NCBI RefSeq assembly: GCF_003600625.1
Contig: NZ_CP032489.1
Span: 2,418,001-2,482,000, forward strand
From: Arachidicoccus soli
GTDB taxonomy: Bacteria > Bacteroidota > Bacteroidia > Chitinophagales > Chitinophagaceae
Length of the DNA: 64,000 nt
Reading direction: 5' to 3'
Both the position numbers and the translations under genes were made by a program. The notes under the pieces are model-generated. The model was given only the letters and a program-made list of their open reading frames with translations. It did not search any database and was not told the DNA's origin. How positions within the stretch are numbered: position 1 is the stretch's first letter; the number at the start of each line of letters is the position of its first letter. Below, one piece after another: positions 3,456 to 27,483 of the stretch.

Positions 3456-5063
3456 TTATTGAGCATCCAGTTTTTTATCAAAAACATTTCGACATATAGC
3501 CTCTACTACCCTTTCTCCATCCATAGCAGCGCTGATAATACCTCCGGCATAACCCGCACCTTCACCACAAGGATACATATTTTCAATTTGTGGATGTTGC
3601 AATGTTTCACTATCGCGTGGAATACGTACAGGCGAAGAAGTCCGGCTTTCCGTAGCCACGATAACTGCATCATTGGAATAATAACCATGCATTCTTTTAC
3701 CAAAGGCCTTAAAGGCATCTTTTAAAGTTTGGGTAATAAAAGAAGGGAATATATTCTTTAATTCGATTGGCTGCAGACCAGGTATATAGCTATTTTGGGG
3801 TAAATTAACAGATTTCTTATCCGTGCAAAAATCAATCATTCGCTGCGCAGGTGCTACAAAATTTCCCCCGCCCGCCTCAAAGCATTTCTGTTCAATTCGT
3901 TGTTGAAATTTCATCAGTAGCAATGGATCGGAGGCATCGGGTTTATCCTCTTTGAAATAATGCAAAGCATCTTCCAGATTCACTTGCACTACCATTCCGC
4001 TGTTAGCAAAAGGATTGTTACGTTTACTTGGACTCCAACCGTTTACCACCAATTCACCGGGAGCCGTAGCAGCCGGAGCAATAATACCACCGGGGCACAT
4101 ACAAAAGCTAAAGACACCTCTTCCATTTACCTGCTCTACCAAGCTGTAGGATGCAGGCGGCAAAAAGTTTGCTTCAATTTCTGAGGCTGTACAATGATAT
4201 TGTATTTGATTAATCAATGCTTGCGGATGTTCAACGCGTACCCCAAGTGCAAATGGTTTAGCTTCAATTAAGATATTTTTTTTGTGCAATAGTTCAAAAA
4301 TATCACGCGCAGAATGACCAGTAGCTAAAACAACCGCAGCGGCTGAAAAGCTGTCCCCATCCGCCGTTTGAACAGATTTTATTTGGCCATTCAACAGCTC
4401 AAAGTCAATCACTTTTTTTTCAAATAAAAACTGACCGCCTGCAGCAAGTATCGCCTCACGCATAGCAACCATAATTTGCGGTAATTTGTTGGTACCAATA
4501 TGTGGATGTGCTTCATATAAGATTTTTTCCTCGGCACCGAATTGCACAAATATATTTAAGACCCTATCAATACTGCCACGCTTGTTGCTACGTGTGTATA
4601 GTTTACCATCGCTGTAAGTACCCGCACCGCCTTCACCAAAACAATAATTGCTTTCGGGATTGACCACACCTTTCTTATTGAGCTCCGCCAAGTCCCTCCG
4701 GCGAGATTTTACATCTTTTCCTCTTTCTAGGATAATGGGCTGGATGCCTTGTTCTATTAATTTAAGCGCCGCGAATAATCCGGCAGGGCCTGCGCCAATT
4801 ACAATTACCTTCTTAGAACTATGTCTTACATCTTTTAAACCTACTTCAGTGATGGTTCTGCGCAGATAAGGTTCCTGCACAAACACACTCAGCATAAGAT
4901 TTACCCAGACCTGCCGGCTGCGGGCATCTAAAGATTTTTTCAGGATTGTAAAGCCGGAAATATTTCCCGGGTTTTGTGAAATACTTTCAGCAATTTTTTG
5001 ACGAATAATTTTTTCATCATTTGCTTCCAAGGGTTTTAGCCGGAGTTGTACTTTTTGTTGCAT
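3456..5063 (-). CDS. FAD-dependent oxidoreductase (COG2509-type)
   Basis: A 535-residue cytoplasmic flavoprotein. An 80-residue N-terminal domain of the kind preceding this family leads into the dinucleotide-binding motif VIGAGPAGLFAALKL at about 88-102, followed by the family signature CFGEGGAGTYSDGKL and a second nucleotide-contact segment VVLATGHSARD. The C-terminus has the GEGAGYAGGI loop that closes over FAD. The physiological substrate of this family is not established. It lies upstream of acpH with 40 bp between them, an arrangement suggesting an operon. Start ATG at 5063 keeps the conserved N-terminal domain. A TAGTTTTG box lies about 140 bp upstream. Confidence 0.88.
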   Translation of the reverse strand: MQQKVQLRLKPLEANDEKIIRQKIAESISQNPGNISGFTILKKSLDARSRQVWVNLMLSVFVQEPYLRRTITEVGLKDVRHSSKKVIVIGAGPAGLFAALKLIEQGIQPIILERGKDVKSRRRDLAELNKKGVVNPESNYCFGEGGAGTYSDGKLYTRSNKRGSIDRVLNIFVQFGAEEKILYEAHPHIGTNKLPQIMVAMREAILAAGGQFLFEKKVIDFELLNGQIKSVQTADGDSFSAAAVVLATGHSARDIFELLHKKNILIEAKPFALGVRVEHPQALINQIQYHCTASEIEANFLPPASYSLVEQVNGRGVFSFCMCPGGIIAPAATAPGELVVNGWSPSKRNNPFANSGMVVQVNLEDALHYFKEDKPDASDPLLLMKFQQRIEQKCFEAGGGNFVAPAQRMIDFCTDKKSVNLPQNSYIPGLQPIELKNIFPSFITQTLKDAFKAFGKRMHGYYSNDAVIVATESRTSSPVRIPRDSETLQHPQIENMYPCGEGAGYAGGIISAAMDGERVVEAICRNVFDKKLDAQ

Positions 5064-5204
5064 GCTATAAGTTAGGTTTTTATCCTAAAAATTATATTCA
5101 ATTCATCTTTATCATAGCCTCAAGACTATCCATATCAGCCTATAGGCGATTCAATAAAAGAGTTTAGAGGATCAAAGGTCAGCTTTTTATCCTAAAGAAA
5201 ACAG

Positions 5205-5212
5205 CAAAACTA
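5205..5212 (-). promoter_or_regulatory. Possible -7 box TAGTTTTG
   Basis: Consensus-matching minus-strand box about 140 bp upstream of the FAD oxidoreductase gene; no clear -33 element. Confidence 0.3.
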
Positions 5213-5267
5213 AAGATATATAGAAGGGCACTAAAGAGGAGGCTCCAATTAAAACAGGTAGGTGAAC

Positions 5268-5297
5268 AAAAAATGGCTGGAAATTTTTCCAACCATT
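5268..5297 (-). terminator. Rho-independent terminator
   Basis: Read on the minus strand: stem AATGGTTGGAA / TTCCAGCCATT (one G-U pair) with a 4-base loop and a following T run. It lies 25 bp after the beta-barrel gene. Confidence 0.75.
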
Positions 5298-5321
5298 CTC
5301 TGTTTTATCATTCACAAAAAA

Positions 5322-5981
5322 CTAAAATCTTACACCGGCAGTAATAAAGAAACCACTGTTGGTCACTCTAGAATTATCGCTTACGCCGCCATTATTCACA
5401 TTTAAAAATCCAAACTGATAGCGTGCAGAAAGTCCAAATTTAGGACCGGGAGTACCATTGTTGGGAAAATAATATTCCAATCCAACTACACCGGAGATAT
5501 CACTTCTCTTCCAATCGGAAGTTACATCCGCCTTTCCATAATTGTTCTTAAAGGACCCTGTCGGAGCGATATTAGCGTTTAATAAGTAGCCGTATTGTGG
5601 GCCAAATAATATGCCCAATCCGGAAAATGGTTCACTATATTTAAACAACAAAGGCACACTCAGATAATTCATATTTAAATTTTTCTTACCGGAATAAATC
5701 TGATCATCAGAATAAGTCGTCCCCATATTACTATAGGTTATTTCGGGTTGAAAATACCAACCATAGCTAATAGGTGCAATTACGGAGATACCTGCTATTC
5801 CGCCTGCCTTGGCATTATCAGAATAAGCATTGCCGTATGGATCAGAAACAATTTGATTCGCTAAGGATAATCCACCAAATAATCCTATTCTGGTTTTTTC
5901 TATAACCGTATTGCCTTTACGTATTTGTGCAAATGATGCTGAAGTAATTAAGCTTAGAATAACCACTAATACTTTTTTCAT
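5322..5981 (-). CDS. Outer-membrane beta-barrel protein (PorT-like)
   Basis: 219 residues with a clear Sec signal peptide (residues 1-18, cleavage after SFA before QIRKG). The mature part alternates hydrophobic and polar residues in short strands with glycine/asparagine-rich turns and ends GFFITAGVRF, with the terminal phenylalanine typical of outer-membrane barrels. It resembles the outer-membrane beta-barrel (OMP_b-brl/PorT) families common in Bacteroidota, often with unknown role. The gene stands alone: a terminator follows it and no partner is close enough for an operon. Specific function cannot be deduced. Confidence 0.8.
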   Translation of the reverse strand: MKKVLVVILSLITSASFAQIRKGNTVIEKTRIGLFGGLSLANQIVSDPYGNAYSDNAKAGGIAGISVIAPISYGWYFQPEITYSNMGTTYSDDQIYSGKKNLNMNYLSVPLLFKYSEPFSGLGILFGPQYGYLLNANIAPTGSFKNNYGKADVTSDWKRSDISGVVGLEYYFPNNGTPGPKFGLSARYQFGFLNVNNGGVSDNSRVTNSGFFITAGVRF

Positions 5982-6086
5982 TCTTTATAATTTTAATAGT
6001 GTAAATATAAAACAAACACTTTCATAGTTGGAATAAATAAATAGATTTAAGTTTAATGGAATATTAAAAATTTGGAAATAATTATT

Positions 6087-7064
6087 TTAGATTACCAGCA
6101 AACTACAGCCACGTATATCGCTATTGTCCAATCTGCCCCAAACCTCAAAGTAATCCTTTTCAATGACACCCACATCATCGGTCGCGATAAATGCACAACT
6201 ATATATGTTGGCCATATCGATAATATTTAACAAGCCTTTGCCATTAGAACGAATAGAAAGAGGATCCGTTTCGTCACGTACCAAAACCCTCATCCAGGCA
6301 GGGCATTTATATTTTCCATCCCCGGCGGAATAGGCTTGGCTTAAAAGTTCCGTCATCCCATATTCAGAATGAATCTGTTGAACACCAAGATTCTTAGTCA
6401 GTATCGCATGGACTTCTGCTCTAGTCATTTCTTTTTTCCGGCCTTTCATACCGCCGGTATCCATCACCACCGTATGCTTTAATTGCATGGGAAACTGTTC
6501 TGCAAAGTCAAGTAAGGCAAAAGTGACCCCCAGTAAAAGGGTCTTTTGCTTTTTGCTTTCCAATTCTTTTAGTAGTTGAGCCAATTCTTCAAAATTGTAC
6601 AGATAAAAGCCGCTTTTTTCATGACCGGAAAGACCGATTAAGTCGTTTGCCATTTTTATTAAGGAAGAATTTTTTCTTTCAAGATAAGCGGGGAGCAATC
6701 CAATAATACAGTAATCCCGGATATCCCCATAAAACTGCTCAAAGGCTTTTGCAAAGCTTTGTTCATAAATTTTAGCTTCTTTAACCAAGTGTCGGCTATT
6801 GATGCTTTGTGTAGTACCACTGCTTTCAAAAATTAATGCAGGTTCAAATTCACCGCACACGATTTTGTGTGTTTTAAAAAAAGAGATAGGCAAAAAGGGA
6901 ATATCCAGAATTGCTTTTATCTCGCTTAGCTTAACACCTAAGGCATCACACCAGTCTTTATATACTTTATTTTCAGCGTACTGAAAACGAAAAAGTGCAA
7001 AAATGTCAGCATCCTCTATTTTCTCCTTCGAAAAGATTTTTTCAGCAAAATTCTGTTTCACCAT
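6087..7064 (-). CDS. LuxE/PaaK-like acyl-protein synthetase
   Basis: An adenylate-forming enzyme of the LuxE family, 325 residues from the ATG at 7064 (a TTG three codons earlier is also possible). The nucleotide-binding loop FESSGTTQS (about residues 80-88) is the family hallmark, and the HTVVMDTGGMKGRKKEMT and SEYGMTELLSQAY blocks match the later ANL core motifs. LuxE proteins activate fatty acids and transfer them to an enzyme cysteine; here there is no luxCD or luciferase, so it is one of the orphan Bacteroidota members whose substrate is unknown. It is a lone gene, divergent from the tricorn-like protease gene. Confidence 0.8.
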   Translation of the reverse strand: MVKQNFAEKIFSKEKIEDADIFALFRFQYAENKVYKDWCDALGVKLSEIKAILDIPFLPISFFKTHKIVCGEFEPALIFESSGTTQSINSRHLVKEAKIYEQSFAKAFEQFYGDIRDYCIIGLLPAYLERKNSSLIKMANDLIGLSGHEKSGFYLYNFEELAQLLKELESKKQKTLLLGVTFALLDFAEQFPMQLKHTVVMDTGGMKGRKKEMTRAEVHAILTKNLGVQQIHSEYGMTELLSQAYSAGDGKYKCPAWMRVLVRDETDPLSIRSNGKGLLNIIDMANIYSCAFIATDDVGVIEKDYFEVWGRLDNSDIRGCSLLVI

Positions 7065-10682: not shown

Positions 10683-11594
10683 TTGAAAAATAAATTCTTC
10701 CAATCTATTTTTTTCGGCAACTACTTCGTTGGTCTTTTAGCCATAGCCTTAAATATCGAATCAACTTTAGAGTTGGGGCTTCCCTATAATACGTTTTTTT
10801 ATTTTGTCTTGATATTTGCAGCACCCACTGTTTATTATACTTATGCTTATACGAATGCCAATGTTTATAAATTACATACCAATCCAAGGTCACACTGGTA
10901 TTTTGTCAATAAGCGTTTTGTACAATGGAGCCAGGTAGTGTTGGCCATTTTATGCATCCTCGTTCTTAGTTACTTAACTATTCACTACTTTGATAATTTA
11001 ATGGTGCTGCCTTTTAGTTATTGGCTTTCCGCTTGCGTTATTATTCTTGCAGGGCTATTGTATTATGGTCTGTTACCCAAATTTATTTTTAAATATAATC
11101 TGCGAAATACAGGATGGCTAAAGGCATTCGTGATAGGGTTTGTTTGGGCCTGTACGGCCAATGTGCTGCCCCTGCTGATGTTACGTATTGAATATAGAGG
11201 AGCCTATCCCATTTCCAATTTATGGATCTGGCTGTTCATTAATAATTGGATGTTTTGTACCGTAAATGCCATTATGTTTGATATAAAAGACTATCCGACC
11301 GATGCCAATAAACATTTAAGGACCTTTGTGGTAAGCTTTGGTTTACGCAAAACCATTTATTATATACTGATACCCCTTTCGATTATTGGTATGATAGCAT
11401 TTTTTGTGTTTGGCTATATTAATCATTTTAGCTTTATGCAATTACTCTTTAAGACCCTGCCTTTTATACTCACCATTTATCTGGCTTATCGTTTGCATAG
11501 AAGGCAATCCAATATTTTCTATTTAGTTGTTATCGACGGTTTGATATTTTTTAAAGCCATTTGTGGTATTATCGCCGTCCATTTTGCGCATTAA
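10683..11594 (+). CDS. UbiA-like polytopic membrane protein
   Basis: 303 residues, about eight or nine membrane segments. Around residues 196-222 it has NAIMFDIKDYPTDANK followed by LRTFVVSFGLRK, which resembles the second aspartate motif of UbiA prenyltransferases and the TxxxxxG segment after it. The first motif (NDxxDxxxD) is not visible: the matching place, near TYAYTNANVYKLHTNPRSHW, has only one Asn-rich patch. It may therefore be a diverged or non-catalytic member. The only start that fits the frame is TTG at 10683. The next gene, a methyltransferase, begins one base after its stop, so the two are surely co-transcribed. A lipid-soluble prenylated substrate modified by both is a reasonable guess, not shown. 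Confidence 0.55.
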   Translation: MKNKFFQSIFFGNYFVGLLAIALNIESTLELGLPYNTFFYFVLIFAAPTVYYTYAYTNANVYKLHTNPRSHWYFVNKRFVQWSQVVLAILCILVLSYLTIHYFDNLMVLPFSYWLSACVIILAGLLYYGLLPKFIFKYNLRNTGWLKAFVIGFVWACTANVLPLLMLRIEYRGAYPISNLWIWLFINNWMFCTVNAIMFDIKDYPTDANKHLRTFVVSFGLRKTIYYILIPLSIIGMIAFFVFGYINHFSFMQLLFKTLPFILTIYLAYRLHRRQSNIFYLVVIDGLIFFKAICGIIAVHFAH

Positions 11595-15393: not shown

Positions 15394-16392
15394 ATGCATA
15401 CCCACAAACTTGCTTGGAATATTATTACAAATGCCCATTACCTGTGGAGAAACCGCAATAAAGAACTACGATGATCTATTGAAAGGTTAAAAGAAATAGA
15501 GATCGCTTTAGGCGGTAACTTTGATCAATTCACCTTTAAAAAAATCACGGAAAGTTATGCTGTTTTTACGCCGCTATTATTTGACGCATTTACTGCATTG
15601 AGAGACAGACATACCACTAAAAAAGAAAAAGAGCGCTTATTGCATTATTTTATCTGCAGTTCTTTATTTGATAATTTCTGTGACAACAACGAACAGCCTT
15701 CAACTGATTTATATAAAATCTCTTTTTTTCCTGAAAGCTATTCGTTCACTTCATTTGAAGAGCATGCATTTATACAGTCAAACACCTATCTTAAAAACAA
15801 TATCTTAGACCCGGAGCAATATAAAAAAGCCTGCGAAGCACTATATAATTCCCAAATCTGTTCGACCACACAATCAGATTGTCAGATCACTGACGAAGAA
15901 ATAAAAGATATAACAAGGCAGAAAGGTGGTTATTCGCTAATGCTCTGCTCTTTTTATCTGGATGAAATATCGAGTACCTTAGAACAACAATGTTGGTACC
16001 ATATTGGTGAAATTATCCAGTTAAATGATGACCTCTTTGACATATACAAAGATTGTAATGATAAAATTGCCACTTTAGCCAATAGGATGCAGGACGCTTA
16101 TGCTTTTCATCATTTTTTTATCAGCTCTTTTAAGAATATTGAAAAAGAGATCTGGCAGCTTCCCTACCCTAATAAATCTAAGCAATACCTTATCAATTCT
16201 TTAATTGGTATAAGTGCTATTGGGCTTGTGGCCATCAGGCACCTGCAAAAAATTCAGCGAGCAAGCCAGCGCTTACCCGATCTAAAAACCTTAACACATC
16301 ATGAACTGGTCATCGATATGGAAAAAATAACCAATAGATTACGCTGCATTAAATGGTACCTAAAGTTACAAACATCCAGGAAAGCAGTTTAA
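15394..16392 (+). pseudogene. Class I isoprenoid-synthase-like gene, interrupted by in-frame TGA
   Basis: Starting at ATG 15394 one frame gives 26 codons, a TGA at 15472-15474, and then runs on without a shift to 16392 (332 codons in all). The part after TGA contains two acidic blocks: FDNFCDNNE (about residue 92 of the full frame) and QLNDDLFDIYKD (about 209), like the two metal-binding motifs of trans-prenyltransferases and class I terpene synthases, in an all-helical protein of suitable length. It resembles proteins annotated as class 1 isoprenoid biosynthesis enzymes in Bacteroidota. Substrate is unknown. The shorter frame from the TTG at 15598 lacks only the first helices and could still be made. 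An internal 445 bp recurs at 18836-19280. Confidence 0.6.
15760..16204 (+). repeat. 445-bp repeat, source copy in the isoprenoid-synthase-like gene
   Basis: Matches 18836-19280 without a gap and with only scattered substitutions; its first part also recurs before 21946. This copy is embedded in the longest reading frame and is taken as the original. Confidence 0.9.
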
Positions 16393-16997: not shown

Positions 16998-17687
16998 TTA
17001 TAATTTTCTTCCTCTTTTTTGTTTGTACGCAATAGTTTTCGATTCTAATTTGGGTAAAACACTATTAGGATTATCTAACATAAGCTCGAATCTTTTTTCA
17101 AAACCAGTCCAATTAAATTCATTGCTGATTAGTTCTATGGGCTTTGTAAAATCTATATTTCCAAAATGAAACATGGCTTTGAGTGCGAGCGTATCGGTAA
17201 ATCCCTTATACTTCTCTTGGAAAGAAGACAATATCTGTTGTAAAGAAAGGAACTCAGATATAAAAGCAATGTCAACAAAATCTTTTAATCGTTTTCCATT
17301 GCTTTCAATAATGGCGTAAATTTTCATTGCGGCGATTTCTTTTACCGATGCCATGCGAATATTGTCTATGACTACCGGATTGTCTAACCAAAGGTGATTA
17401 TGGTTAAAGAAATCGCATTTGATTGTACCGATATAACCTCTCGTACCGGTATCTGAAAAACTGTTTTGGATGTAAGCATATTTGTCATGTAATTTTTCAA
17501 ATACCCGAAGAACATTAAAATCTTTATCGGTGAAAAGGTCAATATCAATGCTTTTTCTGTGGCCAATTAGTAAAGATAATGCCGTCTCTCCGACAAGTCG
17601 AAAATTATGCATTTCATTATCTTTCATTAACTCATTAAGCAAAGAAAGTATTTCGGGTGAAACTGTATTTGTATGAAGTTGATTCAT
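16998..17687 (-). CDS. AbiEii/AbiGii-type nucleotidyltransferase toxin
   Basis: A 229-residue cytoplasmic nucleotidyltransferase-fold protein. The defining segment is LVGETALSLLIGHRKSIDID followed by LFTD at about 36-59: the family's G-(GE)-T-AL loop, GHR, and the two metal-binding aspartates. The following KIYAIIESNGKRLKDFVDIA block matches the downstream D/K motif of AbiEii proteins. AbiEii enzymes add nucleotides to RNA and stop growth, acting in phage abortive infection. The start overlaps the stop of the upstream DUF6922 gene by 4 bp (ATGA), so they are translationally coupled as antitoxin then toxin. All key residues look intact, which makes this the best preserved stress/defence pair in the island. 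Confidence 0.85.
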   Translation of the reverse strand: MNQLHTNTVSPEILSLLNELMKDNEMHNFRLVGETALSLLIGHRKSIDIDLFTDKDFNVLRVFEKLHDKYAYIQNSFSDTGTRGYIGTIKCDFFNHNHLWLDNPVVIDNIRMASVKEIAAMKIYAIIESNGKRLKDFVDIAFISEFLSLQQILSSFQEKYKGFTDTLALKAMFHFGNIDFTKPIELISNEFNWTGFEKRFELMLDNPNSVLPKLESKTIAYKQKRGRKL

Positions 17688-18001
17688 TCTCTCCAGTGTT
17701 TTTTTCCGGATAGGCTATTTTGGTAACTCAATAATTCCTCCAAAGGCACTTTTAAGAATTTATGCACAAAATTTATATCCTTGCTTGGTAAAGTTTCAAT
17801 GTTTTTAATTTCATTAATGACCGTCTTTTCTCCATACATATTTAGGATAGCGTACCAATCATTGAGCGTCCCTAATTCTACTACTCGCTCAACGACAATA
17901 TGCTTTGCTTTGAAATAGTCAAAACTTTTCAAATCCACGTCCCACAACAGTCCCGTAAATAATTTTGCTTCTTTATATTTTTTGTAATCTGTAAGAATCA
18001 T
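17684..18001 (-). CDS. DUF6922-like partner (probable antitoxin of AbiEii)
   Basis: 105 residues, soluble. The pattern KLFTGLLWDVDLKSFDYFKA, then VVERVVELGTLNDWYAILNM and YGEKTVINEIKNIETLPSKD, matches the small DUF6922-type proteins that commonly precede AbiEii nucleotidyltransferases in Bacteroidota. By position it is expected to be the antitoxin, perhaps also the repressor of the pair, although biochemical proof for this family is lacking to my knowledge. It overlaps the toxin start by 4 bp. Just upstream on the same strand lies a decayed ORF that ends 38 bp before its ATG, so the operon may once have been longer. Confidence 0.75.
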   Translation of the reverse strand: MILTDYKKYKEAKLFTGLLWDVDLKSFDYFKAKHIVVERVVELGTLNDWYAILNMYGEKTVINEIKNIETLPSKDINFVHKFLKVPLEELLSYQNSLSGKKHWRE

Positions 18002-18039: not shown

Positions 18040-18290
18040 AGTAAATTCCATCTTAAAAAGCTTGTATTGCTCCCGTAAGTACTGATAATAATCATTCAAC
18101 ATATCAAAGTTATCGACTTAGGACATAACCACCTTATTATAAAAAAAAGTTACTGAACGCTTTTCATTTATCCGCACAGATATCAATATTTCAGTATTAG
18201 GGTTTTCCTTATATTCTTCATTCCATTCTAATCGAAAATAAGCTGCAAATATGGATTGATACAGGTTTTGGACTTATGACAGCAAAATCC
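18040..18290 (-). pseudogene. Decayed unknown ORF within repeat copy A
   Basis: Minus-strand reading gives SIFAAYFRLEWNEEYKENPN followed by TEILISVRINEKRSVTFFYN, a TAA, then in the same frame VDNFDMLNDYYQYLREQYKL and a short tail to a TGA at about 18029. There is no start codon in front. Copy B (21112 onward) has the same internal TAA, so that lesion predates the duplication. Family not recognised. Confidence 0.4.
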
Positions 18291-18891
18291 GTCTTCGTTA
18301 AGTTGCCAAAAACAAGTTCATTACTATGGAAATGTTCTTCCGTTCTTGTTTTCCAATGGATGTATCGAATTTTTACTTTGTCTCAAATGTACAGAATCAT
18401 TGAAAAGATGGAGCATTTTTTCAGGTATTACAATTCCTTTGGTATTACCAACTCCAACGACTTTCTTTTGAATATTTTTTATATCTTCCATGAAGGGTAA
18501 TTTTATATCAAAACTAGTAAATAATTACCTGTAATTCCCACAATTGAAGTTTGTTTTTACAACCCTGAGCCAGCACTCTTTCATCCATTCTTCAGCCAAA
18601 AGCAATCAATCATTTAGTTCTGTTTGTGAATGAACAGAACCCATATGGCGTATCCCTACTCTTTTATTATTCCGGTAACGAATAACCTGTACTGCTTTAG
18701 CTTTTGATACCGTTTGAACTACCCCTATTTTCAAACTTTTATAAACCTTAGTGCGGCATTTTTAATACAAAAATAATAACAAATATTGATTATCAATGTG
18801 TTATGACCACACTAAATTTCATAGGGACAAGTCAGGAGCATGCATTTATACAGTCAAACACCTATCTAAAAAACAATATCTTAGACCCGGA
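18056..18891. repeat. 835-bp direct repeat, copy A
   Basis: Aligns with 21112-21946 over its whole length, with a few per cent substitutions and one-base indels. It contains the decayed ORF, the AbrB-like fragment, a spacer with the palindrome ATTGATTATCAAT (18785-18797), and the first 50-60 bases of the isoprenoid-synthase fragment. The borders are sharp on both sides. Confidence 0.92.
18324..18491 (-). pseudogene. AbrB/MazE-like antitoxin fragment
   Basis: A 55-codon minus-strand frame from ATG 18491 encodes KKVVGVGNTKGIVIPEKMLH near its start, close to the swapped-hairpin DNA-binding pattern (VGNSxGIxIP) of AbrB/MazE antitoxins. It ends early at a TAG, and the copy at about 21550 has lost the ATG (ATA). 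Probably the remains of the antitoxin of a former toxin-antitoxin operon. Confidence 0.4.
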
Positions 18892-19441
18892 GCAATATAA
18901 AAAAACCTGCGAAGCACTATATAATTCCCAAATCTGTTCGACCACACAATCAGATTCTCAGATCACTGACGAAGAAATAAAAGACATAACAAGGCAGAAA
19001 GGTGGTTATTCGCTAATGCTCTGCTCTTTTTATCTGGATGAAATATCGAGTACCTTAGAACAACAATGTTGGTACCATATTGGAGAAATTATCCAGTTAA
19101 ATGATGACCTCTTTGACATATACAAAGATTGTAATGATAAAATTGCCACCTTAGCCAATAGGATACATGACGCTTATGCTTTTCATCATTTTTTTACCAG
19201 CTCTTTTAAGAATATTGAAAAAGAAATCTGGCAGCTTCCCTACCCTAATAAATCTAAGCAATACCTTATCAATTCTTTAAAATGCCACTTCTATGGAGGG
19301 GCTATATGTTTGCGCTTCTTGAATCGCTTGGGGTATATTCATTTGCGCATCCTTATCGAAAACTACCCAAACACTTTTATAAGGCATCTTATCCTTTTTT
19401 GCCTCTTTAATTTTTTTCTTAGCTTCACTTACAAGTCCTAA
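18803..19441 (+). pseudogene. Chimeric ORF: isoprenoid-synthase fragment fused to antisense rloB
   Basis: A 212-codon frame made of three pieces: eleven residues from the repeat unit (MTTLNFIGTSQ), about 148 residues nearly identical to the middle of the 15394-16392 gene (including QLNDDLFDIYKD), then about 53 residues read antisense through rloB from the junction at 19280. The first acidic motif and the last helices are missing, so it cannot be an active synthase. The reading frame remains open only by chance past the junction. Confidence 0.75.
18836..19280 (+). repeat. 445-bp repeat, second copy of isoprenoid-synthase segment
   Basis: Gap-free match to 15760-16204. Its left end runs into repeat copy A and its right end stops abruptly inside rloB. 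Confidence 0.9.
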
Positions 19442-19612
19442 AGGTGAATAATTGGTAAGTTGGTATATTTCAATCTCTAAGCGAGACAATCGTCTTCTAT
19501 TAGTATCTTCACTTTTATAACCATTCAGGTATATGATCTCCGATTCTCCTTCACAGAGAACGAGTATCCTTTCAGGTTGCTGTATATTTTTAAGTTGTCT
19601 GTATTGTCTCAT
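19277..19612 (-). pseudogene. rloB-like gene, truncated at its 3' end
   Basis: 111 residues are left of a protein family normally near 200. The N-terminal half fits RloB: ILVLCEGESEIIYLNGYK (Toprim-like Glu) at about 16-33 and VWVVFDKDAQM (DxD) at about 82-92. It stops after SIEVAF, just where RloB proteins continue with a SNPCFELW-type block. The stop codon is supplied by the foreign isoprenoid-synthase segment. Start overlaps the ATPase gene by 23 bp. RloB partners of AAA ATPases are thought to be effector nucleases in phage defence; this one has lost the C-terminal part and is probably inactive. Confidence 0.8.
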
Positions 19613-20900
19613 CAGCAGAGATATTAAAATCTAGTTCGTATTCGTTAATGACAGGTGTACCACCAAAGACACCTTTAAGATAATACTTTTCATAGGATAC
19701 TTCTTTTCGCACACCTTTTATGTCAGCCAAGGAATAATAATTAGAAGCCTCTTCTTCATTCTTTTCGCAAAATGTTATTTGATCTCTCCTGAATATCTCA
19801 TTTGTCAGCAAAGACACATCATGCGAAGCAAATATCAGTTGTGCATTCTTCGGATTTGTTTTTGGGTTATTAAACAATTTAATCAAAGCCTTTGTAAGCA
19901 ATGGATGAAGGCTCTTATCCAGTTCATCAATAATCAATACATCCCCATCACTAAGTGCTTCAATAATCATTCCTCCAAGAGCCATCAATTTTTTTGTGCC
20001 AGTTGATTCTTGCTCCATTTTAAACTCAACCTCATCTACAACCTTCCCATTTTCATATAAGTTGTGCCTAGTTCTTATTTGGTATTTTAATTCATTTAAA
20101 ATTTTCTTTTTAGTATCCGCGTCAATGCTTTCTGGAAATTTAAAGTCTTCTTCTTTATTTTCTTTCAGCGATAAGCCTTTAATACCAATATCAGCAACAT
20201 GCAACAATTTATCAATGCCATTCTTTATATGAGCATGTTCCGATTCTGTCATCAGATTTGTGATAACTTGAATTAACATGTTATCATAGTCTGTATCGTG
20301 CACAATATGTGCACTTAGATGGGTGGATAAAAACGAATAAGGAGCTATTAGAGCATCAATTTTTTCACTTCCAACTTTAGAAAGGAATAATTGATTGGGA
20401 TAGAGACTATCTTCTATTTTTTTATAAACAGAAGACATTGTTTCCGATACTTCCATTCTTTTATTATACTCTCTTACAAACAGTTTAGCCTTTTTTCTTC
20501 CAGGATAATAATACAGACTTTCATACACAATATTCTTCTGATCAAAGGCTACATTATAAGTATATTTAAAATCGTCTTTTGCGTAAAAATTAATTTCGAA
20601 TTGCGTCGGCTCTTTTCGAGTTGCTTTGTCGAGTCTAAACGGTTCATAAGAGTCAATATCGTCTTTGACTTTAAACTCAGCAGAACTCGCTACAAGATTT
20701 TGAACAGCTTTAAAGGCTCGTAGCAAATTACTCTTACCTGAGCCATTACGACCATAAATGACCATGGACTTCAGCAATTTAAAGTCCTCTCCTGTGCAAA
20801 TATTTACTGGAAGCTCTTTTACCTTAGCCACCGGCATCATAGAGAAAACTTGCTTTCCCTTAATGGAACGAAAGTTGGTGATGGAAAAATCTATTAACAT
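19590..20900 (-). CDS. AAA family ATPase (RloA-like, AAA_21/AAA_15)
   Basis: 436 residues, ABC/SMC-type ATPase that would sense phage and control its RloB partner. It begins MLIDFSITNFRSIKGKQVF, the usual N-terminus of this group, followed by Walker A YGRNGSGKSNLLRA (about 49-62), a long helical insertion, the signature-like STGTKKLMALGG, Walker B DVLIIDELDKSLHP and the switch histidine in IFASHDVSLL. All ATPase motifs are intact. The partner rloB immediately downstream is truncated by a rearrangement, so the pair is probably a defunct defence system with a still-open ATPase gene. It sits between the two copies of the 835-bp repeat. Confidence 0.85.
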   Translation of the reverse strand: MLIDFSITNFRSIKGKQVFSMMPVAKVKELPVNICTGEDFKLLKSMVIYGRNGSGKSNLLRAFKAVQNLVASSAEFKVKDDIDSYEPFRLDKATRKEPTQFEINFYAKDDFKYTYNVAFDQKNIVYESLYYYPGRKKAKLFVREYNKRMEVSETMSSVYKKIEDSLYPNQLFLSKVGSEKIDALIAPYSFLSTHLSAHIVHDTDYDNMLIQVITNLMTESEHAHIKNGIDKLLHVADIGIKGLSLKENKEEDFKFPESIDADTKKKILNELKYQIRTRHNLYENGKVVDEVEFKMEQESTGTKKLMALGGMIIEALSDGDVLIIDELDKSLHPLLTKALIKLFNNPKTNPKNAQLIFASHDVSLLTNEIFRRDQITFCEKNEEEASNYYSLADIKGVRKEVSYEKYYLKGVFGGTPVINEYELDFNISADETIQTT

Positions 20901-21111
20901 AGATGCAAAATAAAGGGTTATTCAGCAATAATATGAAAAATAATTGCAAATTAAATCCGAATATTGTACTTTTACAGCACCATAACTACCATATTTGTAT
21001 TCAAGGCTGCCATTTTTTTGCTAAAAAGATCGCCATTATATATTAAAAGCGGTAATTAAGGCATATATTAATGACTGTTAAATAACGGCGCAGTTGTTGC
21101 CATTTAATTTC
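20901..21111. other. Short AT-rich gap upstream of the ATPase gene
   Basis: About 210 bp between the ATPase start and repeat copy B. No gene or convincing promoter box was seen. Confidence 0.4.
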
Positions 21112-21946
21112 AAAAGCTTGTATTGCTCCCGTAAGTACTGATAATAATCGTTCAACATATTAAAGTTATCTACTTAGGGCATAACCACTTTATTATAAAA
21201 AAAGTTACTGAACGCTTTTCATTTATCCGCACAGATATCAATATTTCAGTATTAGGGTTTTCCTTATATTCTTCATTCCATTCTAATCGAAAATAAGGGG
21301 CAAATATGGATTGATACAGGTTTTGGACTTATGACCGCATAATCTGTCTTCGTTAAGTCGCCAATAACAAGTTCATTACTATGGAAATGTTCTTCCGTTC
21401 TTGTTTTTCAATGGATGTATCGAATTTTTACTTTGTCTCAAATGTACAGAATCATTAAAAAGATGGAGCATTTTTTCAGGTATTACAATTCCTTTGGTAT
21501 TACCAACTCCAACGACTTTCTTTTGAATAATTTTTATATCCTCTATGAAGGGTAATTTTATATCAAAACTAGTAAATAATTACCTGTAATTCCCACAATT
21601 GAAGTTTGTTTTTACAATCCTGAGCGAGCACTCTTTCATCCATTCTTCAGCCAAAAGCAATCAATCATTTTGTTCTGTTTGTGAATGAACAGAACCCATA
21701 TGGCTTATCCCTACTCTTTTATTATTCCGGTAACGAATAACCTATACTGCTTTAGCTTTTGATACCGTATGAACTACCCTTATTTTCATACTTTTATAAC
21801 CCTTAGTGCGGTATTTTTAGTACAAAAATAATAACAAATATTGATTATCAATGTATTATGACCGCACTAAATTTCATAGGGACAAGTCAGGAGCATGCAT
21901 TTATACAGTCAAACACCTATCTAAAAAACAATATCTTGGACCCGGA
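21112..21946. repeat. 835-bp direct repeat, copy B
   Basis: Counterpart of 18056-18891. It carries the same decayed minus-strand ORF with the same internal TAA, the AbrB-like fragment without its ATG, the palindrome at 21840-21852 and the start of the isoprenoid-synthase fragment. It ends at CCCGGA, 20 bp before the arsR operator. Confidence 0.92.
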
Positions 21947-21950
21947 TTAA
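21858..21950 (+). pseudogene. Third, minimal fragment of the isoprenoid-synthase-like gene
   Basis: A 30-codon frame: eleven residues (MTALNFIGTSQ) followed by EHAFIQSNTYLKNNILDPD and TAA. Same fusion point as the 18803 copy, then cut where the ars region begins. Confidence 0.7.
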
Positions 21951-21966
21951 TATAGAATATTTATCG

Positions 21967-21992: not shown

Positions 21993-22322
21993 ATGGGCGC
22001 AACAAAAACAGAACATTTTACAGATAAACAAAATGCCATTGCAACAATGGCAAAGGCACTTGGTCATCCGGCAAGGATTGCTATTATAGAACATCTCATC
22101 AAAGTAAATAGTTGCATTTGCGGAGAGCTAGTCAACAAACTACCACTGGCACAACCCACCATTTCTCAACATCTAAAAGAACTTAAAACTGCCGGAATTA
22201 TTAAAGGCAGCATTGAAGGAAATACGATCTGTTATTGCATCGATGAAAAAGCCATAGAAAAATTACAAGAGTATTTTGCTCATATCTCCCTCAAACTAGA
22301 AACAAAAAAGAATTGTTGTTAA
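21993..22322 (+). CDS. arsR: ArsR-family winged-helix repressor
   Basis: 109 residues. The winged helix is clear: KALGHPARIAIIEHL, then the recognition helix in LAQPTISQHLKELKTAGIIK and the wing GSIEGNTICYCI. Metalloid-binding cysteines are present at 41 and 43 (SCICGEL, the place of the ELCVCDL motif in classical ArsR) and at the very end (NCC). It is expected to repress the operon and release DNA on binding As(III) or Sb(III). It is 16 bp from arsM on the same strand and has a palindrome at the promoter. The operon starts 47 bp after the end of repeat copy B. Confidence 0.9.
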   Translation: MGATKTEHFTDKQNAIATMAKALGHPARIAIIEHLIKVNSCICGELVNKLPLAQPTISQHLKELKTAGIIKGSIEGNTICYCIDEKAIEKLQEYFAHISLKLETKKNCC

Positions 22323-22338
22323 TTTAAAAAAATAAAAA

Positions 22339-23100
22339 ATGGAAAACGCAGAATTAATAAAGGCCCTGGTACAACAGAAATACACGGAGATAGCTCTCCA
22401 GGATAAAGAAGTAAACCAAGCATCCTGCTGTGGTTCCGGCTGTTGCTCGACCGAAGTCTATAATATTATGAGCGAAGATTACAGAGACTTGGAGGGCTAT
22501 AATGCCGATGCAGACTTAGGACTAGGATGCGGTTTGCCCACACAATTTGCCGATATCAAAAAAGGAGATACCGTTATTGATTTAGGGAGCGGTGCAGGCA
22601 ATGATTGCTTTATCGCCAGAAAGGAGACCGGTGAAGATGGTCTTATAATCGGTATCGATTTTACACCGGCCATGGTTGAAAAAGCAAAAGCCAATGTGCA
22701 GAAGCTAGGCTTTGCCAACGTAGAATTTCGGCAAGGAGATATTGAAAACATACCCGTCTCTGCAAATGTTGCTGACGTGGTAGTAAGTAACTGTGTTTTA
22801 AACCTGGTGCCTGACAAAGGCCGTGTTTTCCGTGAAATAGCACGCGTGTTAAAACCCGGAGGTCATTTCAGTATTTCAGATATCGTATTAGTAGGAAATT
22901 TACCGGAGGCCTTGCAAAAAGATGCAGAAATGTATGCAGGCTGTGTAGCAGGCGCCATTCAGAAAGACGCGTATCTTCAGCACATAATGGAAAACGGTTT
23001 TAGCCGTATAACGATTCAGAAAGAAAAAGCCATTCATATTCCGGATGATATTTTAAAGCATTACTTAAACCAAGCCGAAATTAATAATTTTAAGAATTGA
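22339..23100 (+). CDS. arsM: Arsenite S-adenosylmethyltransferase
   Basis: 253 residues; methylates As(III) with SAM to methylated and volatile arsenicals. Cysteines typical of ArsM are visible: ASCCGSGCCS (30-36), Cys64 in LGLGCGLPTQF, Cys152 in VVSNCVLNL and Cys202 in YAGCVAGAI. SAM motif I is VIDLGSGAGNDCFIA. The annotated frame ends at TGA 23098-23100, but the same frame continues for 24 codons to a TAA at 23173-23175, encoding ETGIFSLTVYAEKP and a CGCGANCC tail that looks like a normal ArsM C-terminus. So the gene has probably suffered a recent nonsense change that removes the tail; the catalytic cysteines remain and activity is likely. Confidence 0.9.
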   Translation: MENAELIKALVQQKYTEIALQDKEVNQASCCGSGCCSTEVYNIMSEDYRDLEGYNADADLGLGCGLPTQFADIKKGDTVIDLGSGAGNDCFIARKETGEDGLIIGIDFTPAMVEKAKANVQKLGFANVEFRQGDIENIPVSANVADVVVSNCVLNLVPDKGRVFREIARVLKPGGHFSISDIVLVGNLPEALQKDAEMYAGCVAGAIQKDAYLQHIMENGFSRITIQKEKAIHIPDDILKHYLNQAEINNFKN

Positions 23101-26399: not shown

Positions 26400-27483
26400 T
26401 TATTCCTCCTCCTTCATCATTAAAAAGGCCTTGATAAATTCGTGAATATCGCCATTCAAAACATTTTCCGGATTAAAGGTTTGATAATTGGTCCGGTGAT
26501 CTTTCACGCGTCTGTCATCTAAGACATAACTCCGGATCTGACTTCCCCATTCAATCTTTTTCTTGCTCTTATTTTCTTCGTCTTTGATGGCATTACGCTT
26601 TTGCAATTCCAAATCATACAAACGGCTTTTAAGCATCTGCATCGCAATTTCTCTGTTCCCCAATTGACTTCTGTCCTGTTGGCAAACGACCACAATACCT
26701 GTTGGAATATGCGTCAGCTGTACTTTCGTTTCTACCTTGTTTACATTTTGTCCGCCCGCGCCACCGCTTCTGGAAGTTTCCATTTTTACGTCAGAAGGAT
26801 TGATTTCAATTTCAATGGTATCGTCGATAAGCGGATAGACATTAACGCTCGTAAAGGAGGTATGACGCCGGCCATTACTATCGAATGGGGATACACGGAC
26901 CAAACGATGCACGCCGCTTTCGGCCTTCAAAAATCCATAAGCAAAACTACCCTCAAATTGTAAGGTAGCCGATTTGATGCCCGCTCCTTCCCCTTCCTGA
27001 TAGTCCAATTCCGTAACTTTCCAGCCCTGTTTCTCCCCATACATCCTATACATGCGCAGCAGCATTTCCGCCCAATCCTGGCTTTCTGTACCACCCGCGC
27101 CGGGTGTAATTTGCAGCACGGCAGGCATTTCATCTTCCGGTTGGTTGAGTGTACTTTTAAACTCTGCTTCATCCAATTTTTCAACAGCCAAATCATAGGC
27201 CGTCTGAGTTTCTTCTTCTGTTGCATCCCCCGCTTTCCAAAACTCAAACAATACCGCAAAATCTTCCACAGAAGACGAAACATCTTCATATAATTTCAGC
27301 CAATATTCATTAGCCTGAATATCTTTCATGATTTGCGTAGCACGCTCATTATTATCCCAAAAGCCCGGAGAGACGGAATGTTTTCGATTTTCTTCTACTT
27401 TAGCTTGTCGGTTAGCGACGTCAAAGAAACCTCCTCAAGACCAATACGCGGTCTCTTATATCTTTTAATTGTTCTATTGTCAT
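26400..27483 (-). CDS. prfB: Peptide chain release factor 2, programmed +1 frameshift
   Basis: RF2 releases peptides at UGA and UAA. The main frame (from about 27420) carries the stop-codon tripeptide in [15 protein letters not shown] and the catalytic GGQ in [13 protein letters not shown]. The start is an ATG at 27483 in another frame: 20 codons lead to CTT TGA C (TGA at 27421-27423), where ribosomes must slip +1 to read [14 protein letters not shown] and the rest. Total about 360 residues, the normal length. An AGGAGG lies three bases before the CTT as stimulator. Annotation from the internal ATG at 27329 would miss the autoregulated N-terminus. Confidence 0.95.
27421..27437 (-). promoter_or_regulatory. 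RF2 recoding site (AGGAGG, CTT TGA C)
   Basis: Minus-strand AGGAGGTTTCTTTGAC, with the internal Shine-Dalgarno-like AGGAGG placed three bases before CTT, as in the classical prfB site. When RF2 is scarce the ribosome pauses at TGA and shifts +1. Confidence 0.93.

Follow-up and report, generated by a model that had tools for sequence, protein, structure and literature searches.

The window analyzed here, a stretch of 64,000 nucleotides from Arachidicoccus soli, contains on its forward strand (15394..16392) a frame with a single in-frame TGA, and this raises the question of whether the frame is a broken gene, and if so, what the family to which it belongs may do. The reading that we favour, with a probability of roughly 60%, is that the frame represents a member, broken recently, of an uncharacterised family in Chitinophagaceae that has the fold of class I isoprenoid synthases and the intact members of which would act with a class II partner in an inferred two-step pathway.

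Translation of 15394–16392 confirmed a frame of 332 codons plus a stop, in which the sole internal stop is the TGA at codon 27 (15472..15474, + strand), and placed the two acidic motifs quoted in the original prediction at codons 92–100 (FDNFCDNNE) and 211–220 (NDDLFDIYKD). The part of the frame from codon 28 onward has matches in 132 of the 394 genomes searched from the same family (E <= 0.001, A. soli itself counted). From such genomes 52 loci were fetched, all of which exhibit an uninterrupted frame of 327–371 residues that aligns over codons 5–60 and reaches codon 1. Because of these matches and of the alignment of 52/52 relatives ahead of and across the stop, the frame is far beyond chance expectation. 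The alignment of 53 rows (the 52 relatives and the window gene) delimits the first aspartate motif as DNFCD (codons 93–97, 15670..15684, + strand) and the second as DDLFDIYKD (codons 212–220, 16027..16053, + strand). Ten of its columns are invariant, the window row included, among them the putative metal-binding aspartates D93, D97, D213, D216 and D220 of the two motifs. Codon 94 is D in 33 relatives, N in 16, Y in 2 and E in 1, while codon 212, D in the window, is N in 49 relatives and D in 3.

A second, named genome collection gave no relative with the single window protein as the query and 211 relatives with the alignment (A1); the best 80 of them were retained. Among these best 80 of 211, a full uninterrupted frame is found in 78 (the other 2 stop at contig edges); all 78 reach codon 5 and 76 reach codon 1. 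The two sets overlap, as 25 of the 78 proteins repeat those of the first set. The best 80 of 211 come from Chitinophagaceae, including the genera Filimonas and Deminuibacter, and from unplaced Bacteroidetes, with two taxonomic outliers (L164 and L225) that may be mislabelled bins. Since the frames of the intact relatives reach codon 5 or earlier in 52/52 and 78/78 cases of the two overlapping sets, the TGA is best regarded as a lesion, as had been predicted, and codon 69 is not the start of the family; the comparison with uninterrupted homologs thus refuted a natural start at that codon. Internal stops were flagged in four other class I matches of the 394-genome search (G021, G314, G384 and G327). 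The one in G021 is the terminator of the gene itself, overrun by 3 codons by the match. The relative at G314:C2:54252-55145 carries one flagged internal TAA, which may be an end effect.

L016, an intact relative whose protein shares 42.5% identity with that of the window, was modelled with AlphaFold2 from the 53-sequence alignment (pLDDT 95.1, pTM 0.92), and according to this model the intact relatives have the all-helical class I isoprenoid-synthase fold. Foldseek searches with the model identified dehydrosqualene synthase as the best match (E 4.3e-4), followed by class IB terpene synthases, ent-kaurene synthase and polyprenyl synthases. In the VIA comparison 898 of the 1000 chains compared reached Z >= 8, and the matches listed are class I enzymes; MoeN5 (Z 17.7, 248 residues aligned, 3.4 A) and a class IB terpene synthase (Z 16.8, 274 residues aligned, 4.1 A) count as tied, as do all rows with Z within 1 of each other. 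The prenyl-transferring or cyclising class I fold suggested earlier from the two acidic motifs was thus borne out by the model and the structure searches.

The same matches could be read differently: the intact relatives might be chain-elongating trans-polyprenyl diphosphate synthases, which add IPP to an allylic primer, with the window copy broken. Polyprenyl synthases were the best profile matches among PDB sequences (E 0.011 and 0.014, with unrelated chains appearing from E 0.05), many of them give Z of about 16 with the L016 model in VIA, and the lysine ahead of the second motif (K177) is invariant, which is typical also of polyprenyl synthases. However, the Pfam polyprenyl_synt model (PF00348) scored 13.2 bits, below its cut-off of 27, and gave no match to three intact relatives at E <= 0.1. 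Polyprenyl synthases bind IPP with GGK-x-x-R and with an RRG located after the motif; both are absent from the consensus of the class I family and from the HMMER alignment, whereas they are visible in polyprenyl synthases of the relatives themselves (e.g. L117 and L118). Moreover, at least 2 regular polyprenyl synthases per genome are already present in 19/19 genomes tested. On balance we regard an elongating function as improbable.

A further alternative is that the TGA is an error of sequencing or assembly and the gene works normally. A search of the full single contig of the genome (4.1 Mb) revealed 3 matches, all within the window, namely the broken gene and two partial copies, located downstream of it at distances of ~3 and ~6 kb, and no intact copy of the class I gene. 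Partial copy 2 (18836..19280, + strand, 445 bases) is 97.8% identical to 15760–16204, corresponds to codons ~123 to 270 and sits inside an ORF at 18803–19441; since it is devoid of the first aspartate motif, it would not be able to stand in for the broken gene. Partial copy 3 (21891..21957, + strand, 67 bases) is 92.5% identical to 15760–15826, and its match carries two internal stops. The window also possesses an 850-base direct repeat, with the first member at 18053..18902 (+ strand), comprising degenerate sequence and the start of copy 2, and 95.8% identical to the second member at 21109..21957 (+ strand), which terminates in copy 3. Partial copy 3 is carried along by this larger repeat. 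The degenerate 783 bases that precede copy 2 resemble the remains of a transposase; since the genome, when searched with them, yielded only the two copies of the repeat, this segment is left unnamed.

The region 19277–20900 encodes an ATPase (PADLOC AbiLi, E 2.7e-92; Pfam AAA_21) and a short RloB/AbiLii-like protein of 111 residues (PADLOC E 6.7e-10), whose similarity to Pfam RloB covers the first half of that model; the pair lies between both 850-base direct repeats, and the end of the RloB/AbiLii-like gene is the end of partial copy 2. Directly past the broken gene, a pair consisting of an AbiEii-type nucleotidyltransferase gene and a DUF6922 gene is located at 16998–18001 (- strand). Immediately after partial copy 3 (21993–23100) there is an arsR-type regulator gene followed by a methyltransferase gene, which we take to be ArsM from its cysteine-rich start.

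The nearest aligned relatives of the window gene are L165 (48% identity) and L172 (47%). Compared with L172, the window gene has 52 unique changes versus 18 with L174 as the outgroup, 51 versus 17 with L168, and 56 versus 33 with L165. At codon 302 the window has H, whereas 51 of the 52 relatives carry R and the remaining one carries K. The excess of unique changes together with the TGA points to relaxed constraint on the window copy. Copy 2 differs from the broken gene at 10 sites, 5 of them silent, which is too small a number to demonstrate decay. An error in the sequence would agree with the preservation of all 10 invariant columns, with the lack of any frameshift and the limitation of the damage to one codon, and with the TGA having been read from one assembly of the strain; in the leave-one-out analysis the window is not singled out either, as it has lost 4 of 40 conserved positions versus 5 of 45 for the equally isolated L078. 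Against an error stand the excess over L172 with all three outgroups, the substitution of R302 and the two truncated copies nearby, which indicate rearrangement, and we consider this explanation unlikely. The excess of unique changes over L172, the absence of an intact copy from the genome and the two partial copies downstream make a decaying gene the most likely reading.

The original prediction also allowed for a shorter product. The next in-frame ATG, GTG or TTG after the TGA is a TTG at 15598 (codon 69), from which 264 open codons extend with both aspartate motifs inside, so a shorter functional enzyme could be envisaged. We think it very improbable, as there is no other such start between the TGA and codon 69, the sequence that forms helices 2–40 and 46–70 in the L016 model would be deleted, and a start at codon 69 is found in none of the 52 and 78 full-frame relatives, all of which extend to codon 5 or earlier. 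Decoding of the TGA as an amino acid has nothing in its favour other than the open frame past it, and was rejected, given that the search of the A. soli genome for tRNA-Sec found none at the gathering score (6 matches, all below), that a gene which we take to be prfB, release-factor-2-like, from its sequence (26400..27329, - strand) is present in the window, and that codon 27 is variable across the 52 relatives (R 16, F 7, W 7, Y 4, Q 4, among others).

In 11 of the 52 loci, a relative of the release-factor-like gene at 26400..27329 follows the intact class I gene in convergent orientation, 9 times within ~3.6 kb; in the window the corresponding gene is located ~10 kb downstream of the broken gene, past the partial copies and the defence-like genes. 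This recurrence argues for an old, shared position of the window class I gene. The class I gene of L165 also retains, in its vicinity, counterparts of three further window genes, which encode an M42 peptidase, a UbiA-type protein and a LuxE-like protein. A UbiA-type gene lies immediately upstream of the class I gene in 5/52 loci and in 9 of the best 80 of 211. The UbiA-type gene of the window (10683–11594; 32.3 bits versus a cut-off of 34.2) was considered as a pathway partner, but because its relatives are found in 30 of 59 genomes, versus 12 of the same 59 for the class I gene, it was treated as unlinked.

Clustering of the neighbors of the 52 loci revealed a family of ~390-residue proteins, the gene of which adjoins the class I gene in 12/52. 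For the members tested of both this and the class I family, no Pfam or NCBIfam model scored above the cut-off. The profile of the partner (alignment A2) matched drimenol synthase (E 7.2e-5), and the model of the partner (pLDDT 85.8) gave Z of 30.2 with the drimenol synthase beta domain (284 residues aligned), and 22–23 with MstE and squalene-hopene cyclases; with sugar epimerases Z did not exceed 18.6. The DxDD motif is present in 32/32 partner sequences (12 linked and 20 unlinked). The partner therefore looks like a stand-alone class II terpene-cyclase beta domain with an alpha/alpha fold and DxDD, for which a cyclisation reaction is predicted. Hydropathy and visual inspection identified a hydrophobic, signal-peptide-like N-terminus in 31 of the 32 sequences, and in the remaining one (L081) the start of the gene is in another frame; by hydropathy, the partner appears to be exported through the inner membrane. 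A. soli itself possesses an intact, unlinked gene of the class II type (G000:C1:3779887-3781029; L097 8879-10030), with 383 codons, DxDD and a signal-like start.

Under the assumption that the searches for class I and class II covered identical sets, the 394 genomes comprise 59 with both families, 73 with class I only (i.e. 73 of the 132 class I genomes have no class II match), 16 with class II only and 246 with neither (Fisher value for co-occurrence 2.9e-19, which is inflated by the relatedness of the genomes). The input for co-occurrence and adjacency consisted of 83 of 140 class I rows, in which every genome of the 59 with both families is represented at least once (rows from genomes without class II and second rows were left out), and of 96 of 98 class II rows (two short pieces were omitted), where 140 and 98 are summed match counts. 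The two genes are adjacent in 30 of the 394 genomes, with class II always downstream, 26 times on the same strand and 4 times convergent, and inspection of the class I tree shows the adjacency in at least 3 parts that are separate from each other. Among the best 80 of 211 loci from the named collection, class II adjoins class I in 18 (17 downstream, 1 upstream and divergent), and in one further locus, L178, the two share a frame. UbiA-type, class I and class II genes occur together in L167, L169, L173 (Chitinophaga pinensis), L178 and L188. In L178 (Chitinophaga sp. SYP-B3965, 4932–7040) the class I and class II parts are joined in a single frame of 702 codons, where a hydrophobic stretch at about residue 340 separates both parts. 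L165 and L172, which are closest to the window gene, have no class II gene beside their class I gene, nor do members of the Filimonas-type group, and 4 of the 5 further species of the window's genus covered by the search keep an unlinked class II gene with no class I match. As these congeners have class II without class I, the two families are not strictly dependent on each other in this genus; and because the linked pair is absent from A. soli itself, from its closest relatives and from these congeners, the pathway claim rests on the family at large and not on the window locus.

In the proposed scheme, an intact class I enzyme would work at the inner face of the membrane, where Mg2+ coordinated by its two aspartate motifs would ionise an allylic (poly)prenyl diphosphate; the presumed product is a prene or a prenylated lipid. 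Since the IPP sites of the elongating synthases are absent, the cation would probably be quenched, cyclised or handed to another acceptor. The class II enzyme would then, as its motif and fold suggest, protonate the product with DxDD and close rings from the far end, on the periplasmic side. The signal-like N-terminus persists as the internal hydrophobic stretch of L178, which suggests that class I is located inside and class II outside the inner membrane. In the window strain the class I step would be lost. As a broader and more tentative proposal, which we rate as somewhat less probable than the alternative of its being wrong, Chitinophagaceae may possess a terpenoid pathway divided between the two sides of the inner membrane, with a cytoplasmic class I enzyme (encoded in some cases beside a UbiA-type gene), a periplasmic class II enzyme, a membrane-spanning fusion of the two in SYP-B3965, and the window strain in the course of losing it. 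An exported class II terpene cyclase, if true, would be unexpected. Among the papers listed by literature searches on exported terpene cyclases and on the class I family, none deals with these families, judged by titles and the beginnings of abstracts; terpene synthases of Chitinophagaceae are treated in PMC12723471. As Pfam and NCBIfam are blind to both families for the members tested, annotation likely misses a seemingly widespread terpenoid pathway of one bacterial family. In Chitinophaga pinensis (L173), three intact genes in a row make its chemistry directly testable.

How do these proteins compare with known systems? The trans-polyprenyl diphosphate synthases (PF00348) share with the class I family the fold, the two aspartate motifs and a weak profile similarity, but the family is below the Pfam cut-off and lacks the IPP-binding sites. 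PF00494 (squalene/phytoene synthase) matched neither the window frame nor three relatives. Profile comparisons with the regular synthases of the relatives were too weak to discriminate, with P 0.048 for polyprenyl synthases (23 usable sequences) and P 0.46 in hhalign for squalene/phytoene synthases (a single usable sequence). The canonical NSE/DTE triad of class I terpene synthases is (N,D)Dxx(S,T)xxxE, while the second motif of the family, NDxxDxxKD, has D for S/T and D for E in 52/52 relatives. MoeN5, which attaches GPP to a glycolipid (PMC7839719), has the top Z with the L016 model, tied within 1 with others, but a sequence identity of 13–14%.

The class IB enzymes BalTS and YtpB align with the class I fold of the model through residue 322 (Z 16.8 and 16.7, 274–275 residues aligned). 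The motifs of BalTS are DYLDNLxD and DY(F,L,W)IDxxED (PMC7839719); a DN-x2-D form of the first is found in the window and in 16/52 relatives, and the second, D-x3-D-x2-E-D, has a spacing similar to N-D-x2-D-x2-K-D of the class I family. PF10776 (DUF2600) matched neither the window frame nor three relatives, and was found in 0/19 genomes of relatives, with Bacillus subtilis as a positive control. A class I gene that operates with a class II cyclase is a further likeness, the precedent for two such steps being YtpB and SqhC in Bacillus (PMC7839719). The proposed scheme would parallel YtpB followed by SqhC, but with the second enzyme exported; the sequence identity is 12%, and the partner here consists of a short beta domain preceded by a signal-like N-terminus. 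On the class II side, the HAD-TCbeta drimenol synthase AsDMS (9mhs) exhibits the same beta-domain fold as the partner, and in the alignment the DxDD of the partner lies opposite the DxDTT motif known from drimenol synthase (PMC9128629), although the partner has no HAD domain and carries a signal-like N-terminus. AsDMS has been proposed to originate from the fusion of a HAD domain to a stand-alone TCbeta enzyme, and the partner proteins described here fit this proposed stand-alone TCbeta ancestor of drimenol synthases (PMC12365925).
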